From the NCBI GenBank assembly GCA_013792075.1, contig VMSR01000301.1, positions 1 through 62,303 on the forward strand: a stretch of DNA of 62,303 bases, given 5' to 3'. Source of the stretch: Desulfobacula sp. GTDB taxonomy: Bacteria; Desulfobacterota; Desulfobacteria; Desulfobacterales; Desulfobacteraceae. A program made the position numbers and the translations under genes. Shown here piece after piece: positions 11,792-24,235 of the stretch; within the stretch, counting starts at the first letter, position 1, and each line of letters starts with the position of its first letter. The notes beneath the pieces are model-generated. The model did not search any database. It was not told the DNA's origin and saw only the letters and a list, made by a program, of their open reading frames with translations.

Positions 11792-12555
11792 CTATTTATG
11801 AACGTGGGGATGTTTCCCATGTTTATGGATGTGTTCATGGCGATGGATATGGATTTCATCGTCTGTTAAGATTCTACCGTTTTCCATGGAAAAAACCTTG
11901 TCCGTCACAGCATTGAGAAAATCAAACTCGTGGGAAATCACAAAATACGTAATATCCAGATGATTTAAAATGTAAACCAGTTTTTGTTTAACCGCTGCAT
12001 CCAGGCCTGCCGTGGGTTCGTCCAGCAGCAGAATCGCAGGGGACATGGCCAGAACGGCCGCCAGGGCCACCAACCGTTTTTGCCCTCCGCTCAACCGATG
12101 GGTCACACTCTGTTCAAACTCCTCAATACCAAGATCTTTAAGAATTTTTCTGGAGGCATCAATGGCCTGCTGGCGTGAATATCCCAGGTTCAGCGGTCCA
12201 AACGCAACATCGTCCAGAACCGTGGGGCAAAAAGCTGATCATCCGAATCCTGAAACAAAAGCCCTACCTTGGTTCGGATACGGGTAAAATCCCTTTGGGT
12301 TTCCATGGGGCTCCCCAACACCTCAATAACCCCATGTTCGGGTTTACAAAGCCCCATAATGGTATGCAGCAGCGTCGTTTTGCCGCTGCCGTTGGGTGCC
12401 ATCATCCCGATCCGGTCTTTTGCCTTTATATCAAGGTTGAGGCCATCCAATACCTTATTGTTGGATCCGGGGTATGAAAATGAAATATTTTCAAGCCGGA
12501 TAATGCTGGGTCTGTTTTCGGGCGTCTCAGGCATCATTTGTGTCCAGGAATTCAA
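11792..12555 (-). pseudogene. nikO: Nickel/cobalt ECF transporter ATPase NikO (CbiO), frameshifted
   Basis: Two frames together make one ECF-type ATPase. The 5' frame (12190-12555) has Walker A GMMAPNGSGKTTLL and Q-loop LLFQDSDDQLFAP. The 3' frame (11792-12106 and its upstream extension) has LSGGQKRLVALA, Walker B ILLLDEPTAGLD and switch His ISHEFD. They join if one C is added to the CCCC at minus 12224-12227, giving the normal QLFAPTVLDDVAFGPLNLGYS run. The C-terminus is a histidine-rich tail (nine His in the last 22 residues), typical of nickel-handling proteins. The frame opens at TTG 12555 overlapping the nikQ stop; ATG 12537 is an alternative. Sequence error is likelier than decay, because everything around it is intact. 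Confidence 0.85.
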
Positions 12556-13307
12556 CTTAAGGTTAGTTCAATTGCGACAAGCCCTGTGCCTGCCAGTATC
12601 ATTACACTTAAAAATACATAGTTTAGCGCAGTGGGCGGGTAGACGTCAAGGCTATGGAACCTTTGGTTAAACCCGCGGCAGCGCATGGCCTGATAAACCC
12701 GTTTGGCCCTCAAGGAGGCCCTGACAAAAAGCATACCCGCAAGAAATGCATAGGTCCTATAGGAATGGAGATTGGTTTTGGGTGTAAACCCCCTGAGATT
12801 TGCCGCCCGCAGCAATCGTATATATTCTTCCTGGATCACGGCAATATAGCGATAGGTCATGAGCAGCAAAAAAACCAGCTTGTCCGGTACCTTCAGCTGG
12901 TGAAGGCCGGATCCAAGCGCTGCAATCGGCATGGTGGCCAGCAATGCTGAAAACACCAATAAAATGGCAGTGGATTTAAGGGTGATCTTGGCGCTGAGCA
13001 GGATGCCAGGATAGGAAACAGCCAAAAATTTATACTCAAAAACAAGTGTCCCGCCAAAGGTCAGCGGAAGAAAAATCCAGATCATCAAAAGAAACCAGAA
13101 CAAAGGGTTCAGCCTTTTGAAAACCTCCTTTGGTGGCAATTGTGCAACAAGAATCAACACACAAGCAAGCGCCAGATACCCGGCTGCAACAACAAGATTG
13201 TCACACAATGCCACGGCAACAGATATAAAAACGGCTGCCAGAATCCGGATTTTCGGGTCCAGGCCATGAATAAGGGAGCTGCCGTCGCCAAGGGTATTCT
13301 CAAGCAT
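12552..13307 (-). CDS. nikQ: Nickel/cobalt ECF transporter transmembrane protein NikQ (CbiQ)
   Basis: This 251-residue EcfT-type membrane protein couples the ATPase NikO to the metal-binding NikM. It shows about five to six helices and the two cytoplasmic coupling motifs, AANLRGF (about residue 170) and AMRCRGF (about 207), the Ala-Arg-Gly signatures that contact the ATPase grooves. It overlaps nikL upstream and nikO downstream by a few bases, so the operon is tightly translated. Metal choice is inferred from neighbours NikK, NikL and the His-rich NikO tail rather than from this protein. Confidence 0.9.
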   Translation of the reverse strand: MLENTLGDGSSLIHGLDPKIRILAAVFISVAVALCDNLVVAAGYLALACVLILVAQLPPKEVFKRLNPLFWFLLMIWIFLPLTFGGTLVFEYKFLAVSYPGILLSAKITLKSTAILLVFSALLATMPIAALGSGLHQLKVPDKLVFLLLMTYRYIAVIQEEYIRLLRAANLRGFTPKTNLHSYRTYAFLAGMLFVRASLRAKRVYQAMRCRGFNQRFHSLDVYPPTALNYVFLSVMILAGTGLVAIELTLS

Positions 13308-13785
13308 TATGCCGGCCTTTTTTTCTTTTTTTCACAAAAGACACCAAAAATGCCAGTATAAATATTACGGCAATGCCGGCTGCTATCCTTACCAGGGAGG
13401 GACTTTTTTCAAGGGATTGTTTTTGAGCCATCTTGTTCTTTAAATTTTCAGGACTGGATTCCAGGGAAAGTTCATCTTTGGGAAGGGTCCACTGGCCCGA
13501 ATGGCCGGTTCCGGCATTCAGTTCCAGGATCAGGTCGGAATCCAGGCCCTCGGGAAGTGCAAAGGAATACAGACCCTGGGTGTCGGTGATACCCTGGTGA
13601 ACAAGAATTCCCTCGGGCGTCTTCACAGTGATGGTACAATTTTTGGCCGGCCGGTCGGACCCGAAACTGCCTTCCACATGGATCTGCCCTTGTTCCACCC
13701 AGGCAAAAACAATGACCTTGTGGGCCAGGGCAGCTGTGGCGGGCATGAAAAAGACCAGGGCAATGAGGATAATAATTTTTTTCAT
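13300..13785 (-). CDS. nikL: Nickel transporter accessory protein NikL (periplasmic domain with C-terminal anchor)
   Basis: Signal peptide MKKIIILIALVFFMPATAALA is followed by a periplasmic beta domain of about 95 residues resembling a carboxypeptidase-regulatory fold (ITDTQGLYSFALP), a helical spacer and one C-terminal membrane helix ending KKRKKGRHNA. This matches the NikL component that replaces NikN in nickel ECF systems of Deltaproteobacteria. The true start is ATG 13785: AAGG precedes it, and it lies five bases after the nikM stop. A longer frame to 13851 reads into nikM and is not used. It probably assists delivery of Ni2+ to NikM. Confidence 0.8.
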   Translation of the reverse strand: MKKIIILIALVFFMPATAALAHKVIVFAWVEQGQIHVEGSFGSDRPAKNCTITVKTPEGILVHQGITDTQGLYSFALPEGLDSDLILELNAGTGHSGQWTLPKDELSLESSPENLKNKMAQKQSLEKSPSLVRIAAGIAVIFILAFLVSFVKKRKKGRHNA

Positions 13786-13790
13786 TTGCG

Positions 13791-14399
13791 TTACCTTGAT
13801 TTTCTGAGCGGTATAATTTCCGGGTATACTTTCAAAAGAAAAGAGACACAAAACCCGGTTATGATCCCCTCAATTACCATTACCGGCACATGGGCAGAGA
13901 TGATGGCAATACAGGTTTTTAAAAAATCTTCATTGGTAAACCACAGGGCGAGTGCCATGAGCAATGAAGACAATCCTATTGAGACAAATCCTGCCAAAAA
14001 TCCACCGACAAAGGTCAGGCGTGGTGATTTGCCCAATAACGGCAAAAACAAAAAGTGAACCAACACCGCAGGAACCGCCATAACCACGGCATTGGCCCCC
14101 AGGGCGGTTAACCCGCCGTATTGAAAGAACAAGGATTGCAAAACCAGGGCTGTCACAATTGCCGGAAAAGCGGCCATCCCCAGCAGCAGTCCCACCACTC
14201 CGTTTAAGATCAAATGCACACTCACAGGCCCGATATTCACATGGATCAAGGATGCCACAAAAAAAGCCGACGCCAGAATGGCCACATGAACCATTTGGTC
14301 ATAATCGATTTTTTTCAAGCCCATGGCTGTGCCGACAATGGTAATGGCAGCACCGGCTGCCAGTACCTGACCGGATAAAATGCCTTCGGAAATATGCAT
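13791..14399 (-). CDS. nikM: Nickel/cobalt ECF transporter substrate-binding membrane protein NikM (CbiM)
   Basis: The protein begins MHISEG. In this family the N-terminal amine, His2 and a later His (probably H62 in VHLILNG) form the square-planar metal site, so the start codon is certain. The 202 residues give about six to seven helices, normal for NikM/CbiM. It captures Ni2+ (or Co2+) and delivers it with NikQ and NikO. It starts three bases after the nikK stop. No CbiN gene is present; NikL and NikK take its place, favouring nickel over cobalt. Confidence 0.92.
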   Translation of the reverse strand: MHISEGILSGQVLAAGAAITIVGTAMGLKKIDYDQMVHVAILASAFFVASLIHVNIGPVSVHLILNGVVGLLLGMAAFPAIVTALVLQSLFFQYGGLTALGANAVVMAVPAVLVHFLFLPLLGKSPRLTFVGGFLAGFVSIGLSSLLMALALWFTNEDFLKTCIAIISAHVPVMVIEGIITGFCVSFLLKVYPEIIPLRKSR

Positions 14400-14402
14400 A
14401 AT

Positions 14403-15203
14403 TTATTTCTTTTCCTGCCAGTTTTCAAACTTTACCCAAAGAACTGCTCCGAGCTCTATATCCTTTTTTTCCCCATTGTGCATCATTTTTTTGTCCGATG
14501 TGGAAAGGGCGGCAAAGCCCCACCAGCCGGAAACAGGCGCACAATAAGAAAAAACACCATTTTGATCGGCCTTGATGGTCTGGGTAATCATATAATCTGT
14601 AGGGGCCACAGCTGTTTTGTTTTGATTATAAAATTCTATCTCTACCTCGGCATGGGGAACGGGCTTGCCATCCAGCTTGACGATCCCCTGGAACAGATTC
14701 CCGGCATAGAGGCCAAAGGGTCTGGTCAACGGAAGAATCTCGGTCTTTAACCCCAGTTCTTCATCCCAACCGCTGTCATCGCCAAAGGCGGCCACAATGG
14801 TTTTGGTCGTGTGAATGATAAAACAATCTTCAGCAGGTTCCCAATAGGCTTCGGGTTCCATGACAAAAACATGGGCCCCCGGTCTTTTAACCGGAAAGCT
14901 CAGGGTCCAGGCCGGTTTGTCCATGATGGTTAAAGGCGTAAGGGTTTCGATCAGGTCCTGGTTCTTTCCATTCATGACCACAAAAAAAGCCTTGGGCTTG
15001 ACCAATTCAATGCCAATGGTTTCAAAGGGATGGGAAAAGGAAAGGTCCAATTTTATCTCCCGTTTCTCGTTCTGCATAATCATATTGTCCGAGGGAATCA
15101 CCATCCCGTAATGGGCCAGGCTATTTTCGGCAAAAACGAAGGCCAGGGCCAGGGTCACTAGTGTTATTTTCGCAATCTTGGATCTCATTTTTAGAAATTT
15201 CAT
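14403..15203 (-). CDS. nikK: DUF4198 periplasmic nickel-transport component NikK
   Basis: A 266-residue exported protein with a signal peptide (residues 1-30, ending NSLAH) and DUF4198 features: early HYGMVIPSD, FSHPFE, GAHVFVMEPEAYWEPAED, and the C-terminal WWGFAALS. His residues after the cleavage site could bind metal. DUF4198 proteins next to NikM/L/Q/O have been named NikK and are thought to bind nickel in the periplasm. AAGGAG seven bases before ATG marks the start. It is the first gene of nikKMLQO and is preceded by a leader with a terminator-like hairpin. Confidence 0.85.
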   Translation of the reverse strand: MKFLKMRSKIAKITLVTLALAFVFAENSLAHYGMVIPSDNMIMQNEKREIKLDLSFSHPFETIGIELVKPKAFFVVMNGKNQDLIETLTPLTIMDKPAWTLSFPVKRPGAHVFVMEPEAYWEPAEDCFIIHTTKTIVAAFGDDSGWDEELGLKTEILPLTRPFGLYAGNLFQGIVKLDGKPVPHAEVEIEFYNQNKTAVAPTDYMITQTIKADQNGVFSYCAPVSGWWGFAALSTSDKKMMHNGEKKDIELGAVLWVKFENWQEKK

Positions 15204-15440: not shown

Positions 15441-15812
15441 CTATTTTTTCATCCATGATCCGTCAGCCTTCTGGATGTATTCTCCTGGAATTGCCCGCTC
15501 GGCAAGGGTTATTGCCCGGCGTTTTTCCACCAAATCCATGGTAGTGGACTGCTGTTGGGCTATCTGGGCATAGACGGCTTTTCTGTCAGCATTTTCACTG
15601 GCCACAATCTCTTCCTGACTCTTCTGGCCTGTGACAAAGGCAAGATAACCCTGGTTATCTTCCCCCACAAGACCCTGGGCTTTGAGCTCAACAATGGCAG
15701 GCAGACGCTGTTTCATGCGTTCTTTAATGCCTTCGGCCCCGGATGTGGCAACAAACACCACCAAACTGAGAAAAACCAGTATCATTGCAGAGCGTGTGAT
15801 TTTATTTTTCAT
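15441..15812 (-). CDS. ydbL: YdbL-family (DUF1318) periplasmic protein
   Basis: This 123-residue protein has a signal peptide (about residues 1-26, ending SGA) and the DUF1318 pattern: RLPAIVELKAQGLVGEDNQGYL, then ENADRKAVYAQIA, then a C-terminal GEYIQKADGSWMKK. YdbL acts with YdbH and YnbE in E. coli, where YdbH-YnbE bridges inner and outer membranes and YdbL modulates assembly. The same three genes are adjacent here (ydbH-ynbE-ydbL), supporting the call. AGGAGG precedes the ATG. It is the last gene of its operon; a promoter for nik lies within 70 bases downstream. Confidence 0.85.
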   Translation of the reverse strand: MKNKITRSAMILVFLSLVVFVATSGAEGIKERMKQRLPAIVELKAQGLVGEDNQGYLAFVTGQKSQEEIVASENADRKAVYAQIAQQQSTTMDLVEKRRAITLAERAIPGEYIQKADGSWMKK

Positions 15813-15820
15813 TTTTCCTC

Positions 15821-16024
15821 CTAGTCTTTTTTTATTTTATCTTCAGCTGCATCAATATCGTTAAAAAAGTTATCCAGGGCCCGGTCCACTTTTACGTTCA
15901 CATCAATGGTGATATGAATGGGCTTAATTTCCACAGGCTTAACCTCAACCTGATGGCTGGATTGGCACCCTGAAAGGACCAACAGAACAAGGAACATTGT
16001 TATGAAACTCAATTGTCGCGCCAT
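15821..16024 (-). CDS. ynbE: YnbE-like outer-membrane lipoprotein
   Basis: A 67-residue lipoprotein. The signal peptide ends in lipobox LSGC with Cys at about residue 20, and the mature part carries alternating PVEIKPIHITIDVNVKVD, a beta strand typical of YnbE, which stacks onto the open end of YdbH at the outer membrane. It lies 29 bases after ydbH and 8 before ydbL. Length and order agree with the E. coli ydbH-ynbE-ydbL set. Confidence 0.85.
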   Translation of the reverse strand: MARQLSFITMFLVLLVLSGCQSSHQVEVKPVEIKPIHITIDVNVKVDRALDNFFNDIDAAEDKIKKD

Positions 16025-16053
16025 ACCCTCTCCTTATGTTTTGTCTAATTTGT

Positions 16054-18642
16054 TTAATTAAACATCTTCTTTATATTATTACCAAATTTTAGGACCTGAT
16101 TAAAGGGAAGTTTTAAATTTACATTAAGTTTAATTCCCTGGAACCGTGATCCGGGACTTGCGGCATCCACCCGGACAAAGGAACCGATTTCCTTTTGATA
16201 GGCAAAGGGCAGAAGCCGGGCCGGTTTTCCATCCAGCTCCATGTTCATGTACAAGGTGTCATTTTGGGTGTTCAATTCCAATTTTGCCCAGGTGTAGTCA
16301 AAATCTTTTAAGGCCTCCCTTGCCAGATCCAATTGGGCAAATTCCGGGGTATCCATGGGAATGCCGGCAATCAGATTTTGTGTGTTCTCAATAACTACCC
16401 TCCCGCCTTTCCCGGGTGTGGAAAATAAAAATCCCTTATCAAAGGAAATATTGCCATCGGAATAGACCACGGGTATCCGTCCGTTTAAAGCGCCTTCCCC
16501 CTCTGCATGGAAGGCCCCCATCTGTTTTAACAAGGCTGCCAGTTCAAGTCTATCACAATAGAGGGTCAATGACAGGATATTGTTTTTGGCCGGCAGCCGG
16601 ATTGATTCTGTTGAGACAAGCCCGTTGCACCAGTTAAAGTGCATATTTTCAATGTTGATGGATTTCCCGTCTTCGATGCTGAACCGGGCCGCGGCTTTCG
16701 TAAATTCAAACTGGCCGGAAGTGATCCTGTCAATGGTCAGTACCTGGCCGGGTAAGGATTCGGGCACCAAAAGATCATTAAATTCAACAACACCGGCAAT
16801 ATTGTTCAAGGTCAGGTTCATATTTGGAATTGAAATATTCCCCTTGTCAATGGAAACCTGTGCCCACGTCTTGAAAGCATTGTTTGTGTATTCAACGCCA
16901 CCCTTTGATGAAAACGGCAGTGCAGAATCGGCTGACAATGATAATTGCGGCAAAAATTTTTTCATTCCGGCAGGGATGAGCACAAAGGGGTCTGTCCTAA
17001 ACGCAATTCGGGTATGGGGATCTGCCCCCCATTTTGCAATTCCGTCAAACAAAAGATGAAACCCGTCCAATTGTGCAAGGGTTCCCAATCCCGAAATCGA
17101 AACTGCCGAAACATCCTCCTGTACAATCTTTCCCTTGAGACCTGCCGTAATCCGTGTGTCATAAACAATTTTATCAACAAAAAAACTACCGGATTGATCT
17201 TTGTTTTTAAAGGGAAAAACAAAGGGGAACTTTGCCTTGATGCCCGAAGCTGTCACCTTGAATTTTGGAGAGAGGATCTTTCCATTTTGTATACGGGCAT
17301 CCAGATGAACCAGAGGATCCCATGATTTTGTGACCTGAGCCTTGCCTGTCAAACTTGCGGTTTTAAATAGTGCCTGGCCCAGGTCTGATGTGGCTGCCAT
17401 GCCGGACAACTGTGATTGAATATCAAAGGAAAGGCCGTCTCCTGTATCTGTGAAATCCCCTTGAATCCCTGTTTTTACCAGAATATTTTCAATGGTCATC
17501 CGCTCCCCGCCACGGGTTGCCTCAAAATTGCTGCAATCAAAAAGAAAATGACCTGTCTGGCGGGCCGGGTCTCCTTTTAATGAGAATAAAACCCTGGGCT
17601 GGCCCAAATCCATTTTTACGGGACCTGCGGCAAGGGCGATTGAATTGTCCTGCCTGTTGTTGACTGTCAGTTCAAAAGAAGGCGGCATTCCTTGTTCCCG
17701 GCCCAGTTTAAACCCAAAGGCAAGACCTGTTTCCGGAACAGAAGAACCCGATATATCAAATTGGCCCATGGCCGTCAGCAGGTCTGTTTCTTTTCCTTTT
17801 GTCCCCACAGAGGCCTTGAAATCACGAATTTTCACATCCAAAAAGTTTGGTGCATCCAGCTCCAATTGGGATATGGACAATTGCCAGTCTGTGTCTGGAC
17901 GTTTTAAAAGATCAATATCCATGGGACCGGAAAAGAGTATCCGGGTTTGCCCTGGCAGAAGACCGGATAAAAATTCGGGACGAAAGGACCTGGCCGTAAG
18001 CTTTACCGACTGGATACCTGAACTCAAATCTCCGGAAACCTGTGTGTTAACCGTTTGCCCAAAGGGATGAAACCGGGCGTCCAACACTAAATTTTTCTGT
18101 TGGGCATCCAGGGAGGCCGTCCCCCCAAAGGGAAGCGAAATTTTCCGGTCTGGAGTGGAAACAGACAAAACGGCGTCCTTTATCACCACCTGGTGTGGTA
18201 GAAGAGTGGCAAAGGGTGCCAGAAAGGACAGATTGGAATCCCCGGCGTCTTTGGGGGCCTCTTTTGCCTTGATCGGAAAGGGTTTTCCGTTAAACAGCAA
18301 TTGGTTCTCGGCATCAAGCCGGGCATGGAGGGTCAGTCCGGAAATTGTCACCCGGTCAAACTGAAACCGCGCAAAATCCCTGATACGATATTCAAACGCC
18401 ACAAGGTCTGCAGACATTTCCTGGCCCAGATGAATATGGGTCACAAGGGCATGACCCAAACCGATCTTCTCTATCTTGAACCCCAGATCGGAGGGGGTCA
18501 GGCCCTGGGGCAAATCCTTAGGCAACTGCCTTTTCACAATGGTTTCAACCACCATGGGCAAGGAAAAAAACAATGCCTGGGACAGGATAACCAGGCCCAG
18601 AACCAGGAAAAACAAATATTTAACAGAAATTTTAAATCGCAT
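16054..18642 (-). CDS. ydbH: YdbH-family AsmA-like intermembrane lipid-transport protein
   Basis: This 862-residue protein has one N-terminal membrane helix (YLFFLVLGLVILSQALFFSL, about residues 9-28). The rest is a long periplasmic repeat of beta strands and a conserved C-terminal block (NGRIPVVYSDGNISFDKGFLF; LKLPFNQVLKFGNN) seen in YdbH/DctA-YdbH proteins. The AsmA-like family forms a hydrophobic groove for phospholipid movement to the outer membrane, redundantly with TamB and YhdP in enterobacteria. It overlaps the rhomboid gene by 11 bases, and ynbE follows. Role here is inferred from family and synteny. Confidence 0.85.
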   Translation of the reverse strand: MRFKISVKYLFFLVLGLVILSQALFFSLPMVVETIVKRQLPKDLPQGLTPSDLGFKIEKIGLGHALVTHIHLGQEMSADLVAFEYRIRDFARFQFDRVTISGLTLHARLDAENQLLFNGKPFPIKAKEAPKDAGDSNLSFLAPFATLLPHQVVIKDAVLSVSTPDRKISLPFGGTASLDAQQKNLVLDARFHPFGQTVNTQVSGDLSSGIQSVKLTARSFRPEFLSGLLPGQTRILFSGPMDIDLLKRPDTDWQLSISQLELDAPNFLDVKIRDFKASVGTKGKETDLLTAMGQFDISGSSVPETGLAFGFKLGREQGMPPSFELTVNNRQDNSIALAAGPVKMDLGQPRVLFSLKGDPARQTGHFLFDCSNFEATRGGERMTIENILVKTGIQGDFTDTGDGLSFDIQSQLSGMAATSDLGQALFKTASLTGKAQVTKSWDPLVHLDARIQNGKILSPKFKVTASGIKAKFPFVFPFKNKDQSGSFFVDKIVYDTRITAGLKGKIVQEDVSAVSISGLGTLAQLDGFHLLFDGIAKWGADPHTRIAFRTDPFVLIPAGMKKFLPQLSLSADSALPFSSKGGVEYTNNAFKTWAQVSIDKGNISIPNMNLTLNNIAGVVEFNDLLVPESLPGQVLTIDRITSGQFEFTKAAARFSIEDGKSINIENMHFNWCNGLVSTESIRLPAKNNILSLTLYCDRLELAALLKQMGAFHAEGEGALNGRIPVVYSDGNISFDKGFLFSTPGKGGRVVIENTQNLIAGIPMDTPEFAQLDLAREALKDFDYTWAKLELNTQNDTLYMNMELDGKPARLLPFAYQKEIGSFVRVDAASPGSRFQGIKLNVNLKLPFNQVLKFGNNIKKMFN

Positions 18643-19606
18643 TTTTAATCTGAATCGTTAAAAACAGATCCCCCTTTTCGTGGTTGGGAATCGTTTTTCC
18701 CATTCCGGCCAGTCGCAAGCGAGTACCTTTTTTAACCCCCGGAGGAACATTCACCCGATACAAAGGTTTATAAAAGCCCCAGGGAATACTGACCAGTTTT
18801 TTGGTTCCCGTCAATGCTTCCAGGGAAGAGACTTCCATCTGGCCATAAAGATCAGGACCGTGGTCCTGGGATTGGGTCATAATCACCTGGAGCCTGGGCG
18901 TATGCTTTTTTTGGGTCAATCGATTGAGTCGTTCACGAACCCCTGTTTCCGGCAACCGATTGTTTAGCTTCACCAGTACAACCCCGGCAACAAACCCGCC
19001 AATATGTGCCCACCATGCAATGCCGGACCCTGATCCCGAGCCTGTGGCATTTAAAAACTGCATCAAAAACCAGAACCCCAGAAAAATAAAGGCTGGGATC
19101 TCAATGAGCCAGGGAATAATAATAATGGGAATCAAGGTGAGAATTTTGGCGCCGGGGTAGAGCAGAAAATAGGCGCCCATAACCCCGGCAATCGCCCCGC
19201 TTGCCCCAATGGTCGGAACAAGGGATACTGGATTTAACAAAAAATGAAACCCGCCGGAAATCAGGCCGCAGAGAATGTAAAACCCAATAAACCGGACAGA
19301 TCCGAAATGGGCTTCGATATTGTCCCCAAAAATATATAAAAACCACATATTCCCCAAAAAATGCCAGACACCCCCATGGAAAAACATGTAGGTAAACAAG
19401 GAAAAAATCTGGTTTAACAGGGAAAAATGCCGGGACAAATCCCATACAGTGTATTTTCCCGGCACCAATCCATACAGATAAAAAACCGCCTCATTGTCCA
19501 GACCCCATTGAAGCTGGAACAAAAACACCACAAGGTTTGTTCCCATCAGTGCATAGGTGGCAACGGGAAAACTGCTTGTGGGCTGGTTGTCTCGAATGGG
19601 AATCAT
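18632..19606 (-). CDS. Rhomboid intramembrane serine protease fused to a DnaJ-like C-terminal domain
   Basis: Residues 1-215 form a six-helix rhomboid core: H82/N86 in WHFLGN (oxyanion region), Ser136 in GASGAIAG and His201 in AHIGG form the catalytic set. After a linker, residues 258-324 match the second C-terminal beta domain of DnaJ/CbpA: an EALTGTKKLVSIPWG strand pair, VNVPPGVKKGTRLRLAGMG and GDLFLTIQI. No J-domain is present. The tail probably binds polypeptide on the cytoplasmic side, presenting substrates or holding an orphan partner. It overlaps ydbH by 11 bases and the upstream SLOG gene by four, so all are in one operon. Substrate unknown. Confidence 0.85.
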   Translation of the reverse strand: MIPIRDNQPTSSFPVATYALMGTNLVVFLFQLQWGLDNEAVFYLYGLVPGKYTVWDLSRHFSLLNQIFSLFTYMFFHGGVWHFLGNMWFLYIFGDNIEAHFGSVRFIGFYILCGLISGGFHFLLNPVSLVPTIGASGAIAGVMGAYFLLYPGAKILTLIPIIIIPWLIEIPAFIFLGFWFLMQFLNATGSGSGSGIAWWAHIGGFVAGVVLVKLNNRLPETGVRERLNRLTQKKHTPRLQVIMTQSQDHGPDLYGQMEVSSLEALTGTKKLVSIPWGFYKPLYRVNVPPGVKKGTRLRLAGMGKTIPNHEKGDLFLTIQIKNAI

Positions 19607-20421
19607 TTTACAATCCGGAGCGTGTAATTTTTTTTAAACCTTTGTTTCAATGATTTGACAATCTCCATCACCCCGTCTTCAATGGTAAACAGCAAGGGGT
19701 CTCTCTCCTTGCGAAGCCGGGAGAAAAGCGCCTGGTTTCCTGAATCGAAACCGAGCCGTCTTTTTAGATAATCCAGCCATCCAAAATACAGGCATTGAAC
19801 CCTTGTATCCTCCAGCTTGGCAATAAATATTTTTGTTTTAAGGGGCAATTCTGATTCAATCAAAGAAATGGCCTGGTCTTTTGTTTCCGGAAAATCCTCT
19901 TCTATGGTCCCTTCGGGCACCAAAGCCCTTATTTTTTCCTCGTCTTTTGAGTCAAGGAACATCAGGTAAAACACGGCTTCCAGTATGGATCGGACATCCG
20001 AATAAATTTCCGGGTCATGGCTGGCCCGGGGGCCTGCCACATTTAATATTTCAATCTGGTTTTCCAGGACAAAAGACTGGAGGATAATGGCGGCCTCAAA
20101 CGCATCATTATTGAGAAGATCAATATGGCAGTTGGGTCTGCCGGACACCTTTGCAAAGGATTGGGTCAACAAAGACCCGCCGGTAAGCGGCCCCCTTGAC
20201 AGGATGACCGTGCCGTGGGAATCAAGAACGTTGTGTTTTGTCCGGGTTTGATAGTCCGGGGTATCCAATTCCTTAAGCTTGTATTTTAAGGGCAATGGAC
20301 CGGACTCGGTCTTTCTGCCCTTGGGAATCCAGCCGCCGTGGGAAACGTTTAGTTTTATGGCAAGATCAAGGGCACCATGGTCTGCTCCGGTCTGACCGCC
20401 GGAGATTATTTTTTTTAACAT
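19603..20421 (-). CDS. SLOG-type putative molybdenum carrier protein with C-terminal helical extension
   Basis: The N-terminal 160 residues are a putative-molybdenum-carrier/SLOG Rossmann domain: KIISGGQTGADHGALDLAI, GWIPKGR, DSHGTVILSRGPLTGGS and NVAGPRAS match family signatures for nucleotide or cofactor binding. The remaining 110 residues are charged and helical with no domain I can name (a faint resemblance to DUF6794). Family members are named from a structural similarity and a molybdenum role is unproven. It heads the operon with rhomboid and ydbH (ATGA overlap), which suggests envelope-stress or ligand sensing, but this is inference. Confidence 0.7.
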   Translation of the reverse strand: MLKKIISGGQTGADHGALDLAIKLNVSHGGWIPKGRKTESGPLPLKYKLKELDTPDYQTRTKHNVLDSHGTVILSRGPLTGGSLLTQSFAKVSGRPNCHIDLLNNDAFEAAIILQSFVLENQIEILNVAGPRASHDPEIYSDVRSILEAVFYLMFLDSKDEEKIRALVPEGTIEEDFPETKDQAISLIESELPLKTKIFIAKLEDTRVQCLYFGWLDYLKRRLGFDSGNQALFSRLRKERDPLLFTIEDGVMEIVKSLKQRFKKNYTLRIVK

Positions 20422-22006: not shown

Positions 22007-24235
22007 TTAAGACGGATAATCCAGTGAAAACTCATTCAAGTCATTGATAATTTTATGAATCTTTTCCTGAATTATTTGAACCTTATCTTTCTGGGACTGT
22101 TTTTCTTTCTGGTTTAAAGAAAAGAGATGTTCCATATCTGCATTAAAAGCGTCATACAAGGCAAATCGCTGGTAAATTTTGTCCTTAAAATCCCGGGTGA
22201 CCGCATCTATCAGGGGCATAAAATACAACGTGTTCACACGCTCGTGGTACAGGTCTGTCTGACTTTGAATGGACACAAGGGTTTGTTTTTTGATGAGTGC
22301 AGCCGCCCTGTTAAATCCAGGAGTAAATGAAAAACGGGTGTGTTTGTCCAGCAGGGAGGAAATAAGTGCGATGGCCGATTGGAATCCAAGACCCGTTAGG
22401 GCATTGGCCCTCATTTTGGTGGTATATCTTGCCGTAAACAGGACTTCGGGCAATTTCAGGCCCAAAATTTTTTTAATTGCCGGGATATCAACAGCCGCCA
22501 TGGCCCTGGAATCTTTTTTTCCCAATTGTTCGGAAAAAAAATGGGGTTCTGATCCAAGATGCCCCCCCAGCTTTAAAAAATCAATCTGATATGAGGTGAG
22601 CAGAGATTGGAAATAACCATGGATTCGGTTTTCCTGGATTTCGATCAGTTTCTTTACTTCAGGGAGAATCTGTTCCAGGGCAAACAAGTCCAGCTTTCGT
22701 TTAAAATCCTGGAACATCAGGTACAGGATCTGTCGGAAACCAGCCTCTTTCAGCTGGGATCGATAGGGTCTGGGATCAATGGCAGTCTGGTGTACAAATT
22801 TGCGCACCTGTTTGCCGATGTTGATTGAATCCCCGGCAAATGCTTTTATCAGGTTCGATTGTATCTCTTTTGTCAGACCGGACACGGCCCCTTCAATTGA
22901 ATTGTCCACAATGGATTTAAGACGGGAGGCGTTTTCCTGGAGTTCCCCCAGCTGGATTTTTGTCTTTTTTTCTCCATCCATTTCCGAACAAAGGACCTGG
23001 GTAAACAATTGTGTTTTTTTACCCAGTCCGTCCGCCATTATCCGTATTCGTTCCAAATGATTGGACAACAGCAGGTCATAATGTTTTTTTTCCAGCAGAT
23101 GATCCAGCATCTGCTGGAAAGCCTGGTGGCTGTCATTGCAATACCCGACCATTTGCTCATCTTCCTGCCATAAGTTAAACCGGATGCCGTCCTTTGGGGA
23201 CAAGCGCGATCCCATGGCCGAAAACAGGTTATATAAGGCTGAAAAAGAATATATCCTGGGGTCAGGCGTCAAAAAAACCAGCTCCTGGCGTATTTTCGAT
23301 TCAATCTGCACAAGATCGGCAAGGTTCTCATGTTCGGTCAGATCACAATTGTTTATGAATACGATGTTTTCAAGCAGCCCCAGCCGTTGTATGATTTTTA
23401 AAAACGCCATATCCGACTGCCTGAGGCCGATTCTGGAACTGATGCAATATACGATGAGGTTGGCCGATTCAATATAGTTAACAATCTGATTCAATTGGGC
23501 GGGATCCGTCGAGTCAGCCCCCTGGCAATCTGCCAGCTCAATATTCGAATCAATCAGCTTGCCGAACAGATTCAGACAGACATCCTTCACATAAAAGGCC
23601 CTGGCAGGGTCGGATGTAAATGTCTTATGGTTTTCAAAGGCTTTGGATGAAAAGACAAGGGTCCCCTGGTCGGCACCGACAATATCCTTACATGCTTCAT
23701 ATCCCCCAAGGGCATTGCGGATCAAAAGGGCTTCGGGCCGGATGCCGGAACTTGTGACCGGAAATTCCTTTACAAGCCTGTCATAGACCTGACCCAGGTA
23801 GTCCCGGTCTTTTTTTCGCCTCAGATCGAATTGGTCGCCCAGACCCGCCCCCTGGCCGTTGTCGGGAAACAGATCCAGGGTGGCCCGGATAAGATGGTTA
23901 ATTTCATCCCAGGACCTCAGCTGGAGAATTGCTTCGTTTTTTTTCCCTTTTCGGATCCGGGTGGTAATGGCGGTGATGACCCCTGCCCCTCTTTTTACCA
24001 GTTCTTTTTTGACCAAAGAATTAATAAAGGTACTTTTCCCGGATTTGATCACCCCCACAACCGCAATCTTGATCAGGCCGGACTGGATCTGGCCGGGAAT
24101 TTTAAGACAGCCGTTTTTATAGGCTGTCAATGCGGCATCGCCCATGTGGGGGATCTGTTCCATCATCTCGATGACTGACAGGGTCTGAGCGACAATGGTC
24201 TCTAAGGTCTCTATCCTCTGTGTGTGTGTTGTCAT
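22007..24235 (-). CDS. Dynamin-family GTPase
   Basis: A 742-residue bacterial dynamin-like protein. G1 P-loop GVIKSGKST (61-69), G2 Thr region TAITTR (about 88-93), G3 DCQG (236-239) and G4 NNCD (295-298) define the GTPase head. The remaining 400 residues are helical stalk, with coiled coil at the end (KEKQSQKDKVQIIQEKIHKII). There is no obvious transmembrane paddle, although LTGLGFQSAIALISSLL (about residue 620) could insert in membrane. Bacterial dynamins remodel or protect membranes. It lies 22 bases downstream of yqgE, the only apparent operon partner. Partner and precise role unknown. Confidence 0.8.
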   Translation of the reverse strand: MTTHTQRIETLETIVAQTLSVIEMMEQIPHMGDAALTAYKNGCLKIPGQIQSGLIKIAVVGVIKSGKSTFINSLVKKELVKRGAGVITAITTRIRKGKKNEAILQLRSWDEINHLIRATLDLFPDNGQGAGLGDQFDLRRKKDRDYLGQVYDRLVKEFPVTSSGIRPEALLIRNALGGYEACKDIVGADQGTLVFSSKAFENHKTFTSDPARAFYVKDVCLNLFGKLIDSNIELADCQGADSTDPAQLNQIVNYIESANLIVYCISSRIGLRQSDMAFLKIIQRLGLLENIVFINNCDLTEHENLADLVQIESKIRQELVFLTPDPRIYSFSALYNLFSAMGSRLSPKDGIRFNLWQEDEQMVGYCNDSHQAFQQMLDHLLEKKHYDLLLSNHLERIRIMADGLGKKTQLFTQVLCSEMDGEKKTKIQLGELQENASRLKSIVDNSIEGAVSGLTKEIQSNLIKAFAGDSINIGKQVRKFVHQTAIDPRPYRSQLKEAGFRQILYLMFQDFKRKLDLFALEQILPEVKKLIEIQENRIHGYFQSLLTSYQIDFLKLGGHLGSEPHFFSEQLGKKDSRAMAAVDIPAIKKILGLKLPEVLFTARYTTKMRANALTGLGFQSAIALISSLLDKHTRFSFTPGFNRAAALIKKQTLVSIQSQTDLYHERVNTLYFMPLIDAVTRDFKDKIYQRFALYDAFNADMEHLFSLNQKEKQSQKDKVQIIQEKIHKIINDLNEFSLDYPS

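Follow-up and report, generated by a model that had tools for sequence, protein, structure and literature searches.

The window analyzed here, a stretch of 62,303 nucleotides from Desulfobacula sp. (contig VMSR01000301.1 of assembly GCA_013792075.1), carries on its minus strand a gene for a protein of 324 amino acids (aa) in which a rhomboid protease core is followed by a DnaJ-type C-terminal beta domain (CTD). It is near certain that the protein contains two real domains, the rhomboid core and one DnaJ CTD, and this architecture is real, conserved and apparently hitherto undescribed among rhomboids. The gene begins with an ATG at 19606 and stops at 18632, the interval given by an earlier sequence-only reading of the same DNA, in which the product was described as a rhomboid fused to a DnaJ/CbpA-type domain without a J-domain; the Pfam matches, the structural model and 39/39 orthologs uphold that fusion. 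The gene and its parts, in positions of the window, are the following.

18632..19606, minus strand: rhomboid protease with a C-terminal DnaJ CTD-like domain, 324 aa (open reading frame, Pfam, AlphaFold2 model)
18971..19414, minus strand: rhomboid core, residues 65-212 (PF01694; GlpG match of the model)
19349..19363, minus strand: His82...Asn86 motif (HFLGN), both residues invariant in 128/128 orthologs
19199..19201, minus strand: codon of catalytic Ser136 in GASGA, invariant in 128/128 aligned orthologs
19004..19006, minus strand: codon of catalytic His201 in AWWAHIGGF, invariant in 128/128 aligned orthologs
18863..18970, minus strand: linker, residues 213-248, Lys/Arg-rich, with the conserved TPRLQVI (sequence, conservation)
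18644..18862, minus strand: single DnaJ CTD, residues 249-321 (PF01556, tail model, fold matches)
18797..18799, minus strand: codon of invariant Lys270 (128/128), by alignment on the strand bordering the CTD I client pocket

The core is a six-helix rhomboid fold of the 'MIPLRD' type. Residues 65-212 match Pfam Rhomboid with 113.7 bits (cut-off 22.6, E 1.1e-32), and in the full-length AlphaFold2 model, whose mean predicted local distance difference test score (pLDDT) is 87.1, residues 12-219 superpose on E. coli GlpG with a best Z of 18.3 and a root-mean-square deviation of 3.1 Å over 172 residues (VIA-align), at a sequence identity of about 20%; the model also matches Derlin-1 (Z 11.6). Ser136, His201, His82 and Asn86 are each invariant in 128/128 aligned orthologs, which were taken from 149 distinct proteins at 174 loci after 21 proteins with a length outside 310-345 residues or without the MIP start had been dropped. 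The first two of these residues had been named as the catalytic pair in the sequence-only reading, and they stand as stated; the other two we take to be the equivalents of His150 and Asn154 of the GlpG oxyanion site. The core looks active and is predicted to be a protease. Assignment to the rhombosortases (TIGR03902) was rejected, the score of 24.2 bits being below the curated cut-off of 84.

Residues 256-321 of the tail match Pfam DnaJ_C (PF01556) at 36.6 bits (E 5.9e-9), the curated cut-off being 26.6, and the score is 41.7 bits when residues 236-324 are searched alone. Its best matches among PDB sequences are Thermus DnaJ2 chains (E 6.6e-9, phmmer), and a profile made from 32 tails lifts the DnaJ2 match to E 9.8e-17. 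The tail modeled by itself (pLDDT 87.3) gives 42 Foldseek matches at E <= 0.001, of which 37 are titled DnaJ/Hsp40 and five lie in axonemal complexes; in VIA-align, entries of the DnaJ/Hsp40 type, some of them axonemal or from radial spokes, reach Z 6.6-11.8 while the next unrelated ones stay at or below 3.4, and in the full-length model residues 243 to 321-324 superpose on DnaJ C-terminal domains with Z 9.9-11.2. Neither the profile search nor the model assigned the tail to an unrelated fold, and the domain proposed in the sequence-only reading is present, although it starts at about residue 249 and not at 258. Because both Pfam families are matched in 39/39 orthologs chosen as full-length (E <= 0.01), the match of the tail is not due to chance.

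The tail domain is one unit of about 73 residues, and the protein ends three residues past its last strand. The Pfam scans of the window protein and the 39 orthologs list only Rhomboid, DnaJ_C and DUF1751; no J-domain was detected in the former at E <= 1 or in the latter at E <= 0.01, and a second CTD and the DnaJ dimerization segment are absent from the 324-aa protein as judged by Pfam and the model. Membership in DnaJ/CbpA in the strict sense is ruled out by the missing J-domain and the presence of only one CTD. The window genome has three DnaJ_C matches in all, the rhomboid fusion included.

Ten columns of the tail are listed at a conservation of at least 95% (G255, E263, G267, K270, P288, L299, G303, G312, D313 and L316); G255, E263, G267 and K270 reach at least 96%, and V272 and I274 are conserved at 85% and 84%. 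Judged by eye, Lys270 presumably occupies the position of Lys199 in Sis1. In the linker, residues 213-240 contain eight Lys/Arg residues, L239 and Q240 are conserved at 94% and 93%, and the full-length model shows a short strand at residues 239-241. The TPRLQVI motif (residues 236-244; 18875-18901, minus strand) follows the last membrane helix, precedes the CTD and could be a pseudo-substrate strand. Both termini of GlpG are cytosolic, and because of this and of the Lys/Arg-rich segment after the last helix, the tail and linker are taken to lie, by analogy, on the cytosolic side. Four of the ten top columns fall in a strand1-helix-strand2 unit, which corresponds to client pocket II of Sis1 CTDI (PMC11722011).

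The sequence-only reading had called the tail the second beta domain of DnaJ/CbpA, whereas its sequence speaks for the first. Our CTD I and CTD II profiles are based on 16 CbpA-type proteins found in the phylum, a set that leaves out L239, L247, L252 and L253 and so the CbpA-type protein of the window genome. The mean tail score over 174 loci is 46.7 bits with CTD I and 35.2 with CTD II, and the CTD I profile beats the other in 146/149 distinct tails. A tree of 63 domains, calculated without sJ_L216 and sJ_L222 and based on 72 columns only with the bootstrap not settled, splits CTD II from the tails, CTD I and the single-CTD J-proteins with support 100/98 and places 25 tails in one clade (97/99). 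The alignment shows two marks of CTD I in the tail, the hairpin length and a lysine after a conserved glycine. Contrary to the sequence, the structural aligner puts most tail alignments on what we take to be CTD II ranges, and the Pfam half-profile matched by the tail varies, being the second half (82-150) in one run and the first (4-74) in another. On the strength of our own profiles and tree, the tail appears to be of the CTD I type.

Single-CTD J-proteins of about 220-295 aa are also found in the phylum (L215, L218, L219, L221, L222, L223, L224 and L225). They came from a family search in 39 phylum genomes and, by eye, consist of a J-domain, a linker and one CTD at or near the end, an arrangement (PF00226 plus one DnaJ_C unit) that Pfam confirmed in the two proteins tested; several show a Gly/Phe-rich or hydrophobic middle stretch, again by eye. 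A profile made from eight diverse sequences of this kind, which is the broadest and most permissive of the set, is the top scorer for 146/149 distinct tails. A clade uniting the tails with the single-CTD J-proteins is not rejected (approximately unbiased test, p 0.506), and the tree leaves their relation unsettled. The rhomboid may have taken its tail from a single-CTD J-protein rather than from a CbpA CTD I, which we offer as a lead and not as a result.

We surveyed genomes of the window's own phylum, in samples that overlap among the surveys; every genome drawn for the class bore a same-family or same-order label. A match over at least 300 query residues was obtained in 75/86 genomes of the family, the rest being six partial matches, one distant rhomboid only and four genomes without a match at 1e-10, and in 119/144 genomes of the order; of the others in the order, five gave partial or tail-less matches alone and 20 gave nothing at 1e-30. 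In the class, 101/117 genomes have a near-full-length match (at least 300 residues), two have one split over contigs, one has a tail-less match and 13 have no match at 1e-40. Among the matches listed for the phylum sample (n=297), full-length ones were also found in 28 genomes labeled only as the same phylum; two further matches are cut by a contig end, and 84/297 genomes have no match at 1e-35. The fusion is therefore no isolated case within the phylum; a survey of rhomboid genes for it had been suggested in the sequence-only reading. Most of the other listed phylum matches stop near residue 214, and their open frames are mostly about 220-290 aa long. A scan of genome contigs matched 564 loci, of which the best 80 were considered; the named ones that have the fusion include Desulfobacter, Desulfobacula, Desulfotignum, Desulfosarcina and Desulfatitalea, and the titles among these 80 are of the Desulfobacterales type or generic (Deltaproteobacteria, Proteobacteria), with one Syntrophobacterales.

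Second copies are rare. In one genome a second partial match (G522:C118:111892-112404; query 107-276, 56% identity) lies beside the full-length fused gene. In-frame stop codons occur in a few of the orthologous matches (G046:C157; G210, G201, G179; G354, G347). A search of plasmids gave no match to the tail; the full protein matched 39 plasmid records, none spanning 80% of the query, and the 15 of these that are listed end at query residue 208-237.

In a tree of rhomboid cores from 29 fused and 26 tail-less proteins, which leaves out L256 and also the other rhomboids of the window genome, L002 and L003, all fused proteins fall in one clade (98/94). One tail-less protein, L228 (G277:C9), which ends at 236 aa, is nested in this clade and offers a natural deletion experiment. 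The fused/tail-less label needs two changes on the tree, for which the simplest reading would be one gain of the tail and one later nested loss; because the tree is unrooted, we can only infer the direction. It seems that the tail was gained once, in the ancestor of the order and some other lineages of the phylum, and was mostly kept. In same-family ortholog pairs, some of which share sequences, omega of the tail is 0.076-0.207 in 7/9 pairs, the two closest pairs giving 0.025 and 0, that of the core is 0.04-0.09 in nine pairs, and that of the linker (213-246) is above that of the tail in 5/7 computable pairs. The low omega of the tail indicates that it is under purifying selection.

The protein resembles several known systems in part. 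GlpG shares with it the six-helix fold, the Ser-His dyad and the oxyanion residues but has no DnaJ-like domain, its extra domain being an unrelated one at the N-terminal, cytosolic side. In Shigella, GlpG takes part in quality control of orphan respiratory-complex proteins (PMC7232013). YqgP of Bacillus is likewise a rhomboid with an accessory domain, a cytosolic one that helps to cleave and pass on a substrate (PMC7231995); it sits at the N-terminus, resembles endonucleases in its fold and binds Mn/Zn, whereas the tail of the window protein is a C-terminal DnaJ CTD. The tail-less 'MIPLRD' rhomboids of the phylum belong to the same core family, residues 1 to ~214 being about 42-54% identical among the matches listed, and the 26 read for the core tree have no CTD. 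DnaJ and CbpA share the fold and sequence family of one beta domain with the tail, but they have a J-domain, a second CTD and a dimerization segment, all missing from the window protein, in which the beta domain is fused to a membrane protease. The single-CTD J-proteins end in a similar CTD but lack a rhomboid and carry an N-terminal J-domain, recognized by Pfam in two and by eye in the rest. Derlins, in which a rhomboid fold is tied to the handling of misfolded proteins (PMC12615303, PMC7231995), are eukaryotic pseudoproteases, while the core described here keeps its catalytic residues. A literature search over titles and the starts of abstracts of the papers listed, in which few subscription journals were covered, yielded no account of a rhomboid-DnaJ CTD fusion, and the main text of a 2025 rhomboid review mentions neither DnaJ nor Hsp40 (PMC12615303).

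Our preferred interpretation, to which we give an even chance, is that the protein works in membrane quality control as a protease, and that its DnaJ module, on the cytosolic side and lacking a J-domain of its own, captures exposed polypeptide, the binding being a property we infer for this tail. The CTD would serve as a built-in holdase that grips extended, hydrophobic polypeptide in its client pocket. Such polypeptide would come from the cytosolic tails or loops of membrane proteins that are orphan, misfolded or half-degraded. Capture of these segments would raise the local concentration of substrate at a slow intramembrane active site, and the cleavage products would be held until DnaK/DnaJ or a processive protease, FtsH for instance, takes them over. 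Because the J-domain is absent, the protein could not drive the Hsp70 cycle alone, so that the chaperone module would be coupled to cutting and not to refolding. In a bolder form, which we hold to be rather less likely than not, the protein would be a one-chain membrane chaperone-protease, in which an Hsp40 client domain freed from the Hsp70 cycle has been wired to an intramembrane protease as an ATP-free first degradation step, spread over the order and its kin and resembling a primitive form of endoplasmic-reticulum-associated degradation.

Several published observations are consistent with the quality-control interpretation. Respiratory-complex components left as orphans are cleared by two bacterial rhomboids, GlpG and Rhom7 (PMC7232013), and YqgP uses its cytosolic domain for cleavage and also acts as an FtsH adaptor (PMC7231995). 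In CTD I, strands 1 and 2 border the pocket in which DnaJ-type CTDs bind clients and, in class B, also the Hsp70 tail (PMC11722011), and J-proteins can be holdases by themselves (PMC8437434). In the light of these four papers, the role suggested in the sequence-only reading, that of handling unfolded membrane proteins or presenting substrates, is plausible as to rhomboid quality control and client binding by CTDs in general, while client binding by this particular tail, together with capture, hand-off and the quality-control role itself, would be an extension from them.

A number of points speak against this interpretation. Protease activity and client binding are both predictions from sequence. 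A dimeric DnaJ has an avidity that a protein with one CTD and no dimerization segment would not have, except if the rhomboid oligomerizes. Six more of the tail columns at or above 95% lie outside the pocket unit, and many of the ten conserved residues may be there just to maintain the fold. The core-only L228 of G277, nested among fused proteins, implies that the tail was dispensable at least once. Of the 117 class genomes, the 13 without a match at 1e-40 include G013, which has a partial match (7.1e-35), and the others may be losses or assembly gaps. The neighboring genes offer no proteostasis partner and differ between groups. Rhom7 did not need its C-terminal domain to cut an artificial substrate (PMC7232013), and a review holds that the choice of substrates by rhomboids is driven mainly within the membrane (PMC12615303).

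The tail could instead be a docking module for DnaK, DnaJ/CbpA or FtsH, by which the rhomboid recruits the machinery that receives its cut substrates; we regard this as somewhat unlikely, though it has real points in its favor. In class B proteins, CTD I binds the C-terminal EEVD of Hsp70 at the client pocket (PMC11722011), and the invariant Lys270 presumably stands at the Sis1 Lys199 position named in that paper. On the other side, a lysine at this place is also common in ordinary CTD I domains of the alignment, the EEVD ending belongs to Hsp70 of the eukaryotic cytosol, and the J-protein of T. thermophilus binds EEVD by CTDII (PMC11722011), while our tail is of the CTD I type by sequence. 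The precedent of YqgP, which binds and serves FtsH (PMC7231995), also favors docking.

It is improbable, in our estimate, that the tail has a structural or regulatory function, dimerizing or stabilizing the protease or closing its cytosolic side, with the TPRLQVI strand possibly lying in the groove as a pseudo-substrate. The conservation of this motif at L239 and Q240 and its short strand in the model would fit such a function, as would the occurrence of CTD-type domains in assemblies among the matches, for example the radial spoke and the cylindrical DNAJA2. However, tail-less relatives are common in the phylum, so such cores do not need the tail.

The surroundings of the gene suggest another explanation, in which the protein serves its local operon. 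The adjoining genes are as follows.

19603..20421, minus strand: upstream gene, cpYpsA (SLOG) protein (PF12694, 177.2 bits; 4-base overlap with the rhomboid start)
16054..18642, minus strand: downstream gene, YdbH-like protein of the intermembrane phospholipid transport family (PF11739, 66.4 bits)
15821..16024, minus strand: small YnbE-like lipoprotein (read by eye; no Pfam match)
15441..15812, minus strand: YdbL-like protein, DUF1318 (PF07027, 90.8 bits), which we take to be YdbL

The YdbH-, YnbE- and YdbL-like genes stand in a row (15441-18642, minus strand) that overlaps the rhomboid gene and is likely to be an intermembrane lipid-transport operon. Since the rhomboid gene overlaps cpYpsA by four bases and its end is overlapped by the YdbH-like gene by 11, the three are probably co-translated, and the rhomboid could be thought to act in the maturation or quality control of a YdbH-YnbE-YdbL intermembrane lipid bridge. 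In a survey of 80 named loci, 77 of them with a usable anchor, a YdbH cluster lies directly downstream in 17/74 and a cpYpsA cluster directly upstream in 21/75; by eye, NadC is upstream in 19/75 loci and ValS at the second place in 20/70. The same fusion thus occurs in many loci with other upstream genes, such as NadC and ValS, where the YdbH cluster does not adjoin, and we consider a role in this operon very unlikely. As a general explanation, the link to YdbH-YnbE-YdbL is ruled out by the differing neighbors elsewhere, and because no neighbor is universal, the neighborhood does not explain the fusion. Further away on the minus strand are a gene for a dynamin-like GTPase of 742 aa (22007-24235; Dynamin_N, 51.6 bits) and an uptake cluster of the cobalt/nickel type (12552-15203) consisting of CbiQ, a small protein without a Pfam match, CbiM and a DUF4198 protein.

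The modest half-domain score of 36.6 bits might suggest a remnant in decay or an artefact of assembly or annotation, but this is hardly credible, given the fusion in 101/117 class genomes, and a chance match or remnant is ruled out by the low omega and by the double matches in 39/39 orthologs.

The fusion touches two open questions, how rhomboids find their substrates and what bacterial rhomboids are for. Here a protease is joined to a domain of partly understood binding chemistry and this joining is kept in most sampled genomes of the order, so that the hypothesis of substrate delivery becomes directly testable. If the quality-control interpretation is true, the protein would show the client domain of J-proteins at work without a J-domain in the same chain, and in a large group related to Desulfobacter the protease may be able to take hold of membrane proteins that are damaged or unassembled with no help from other proteins.

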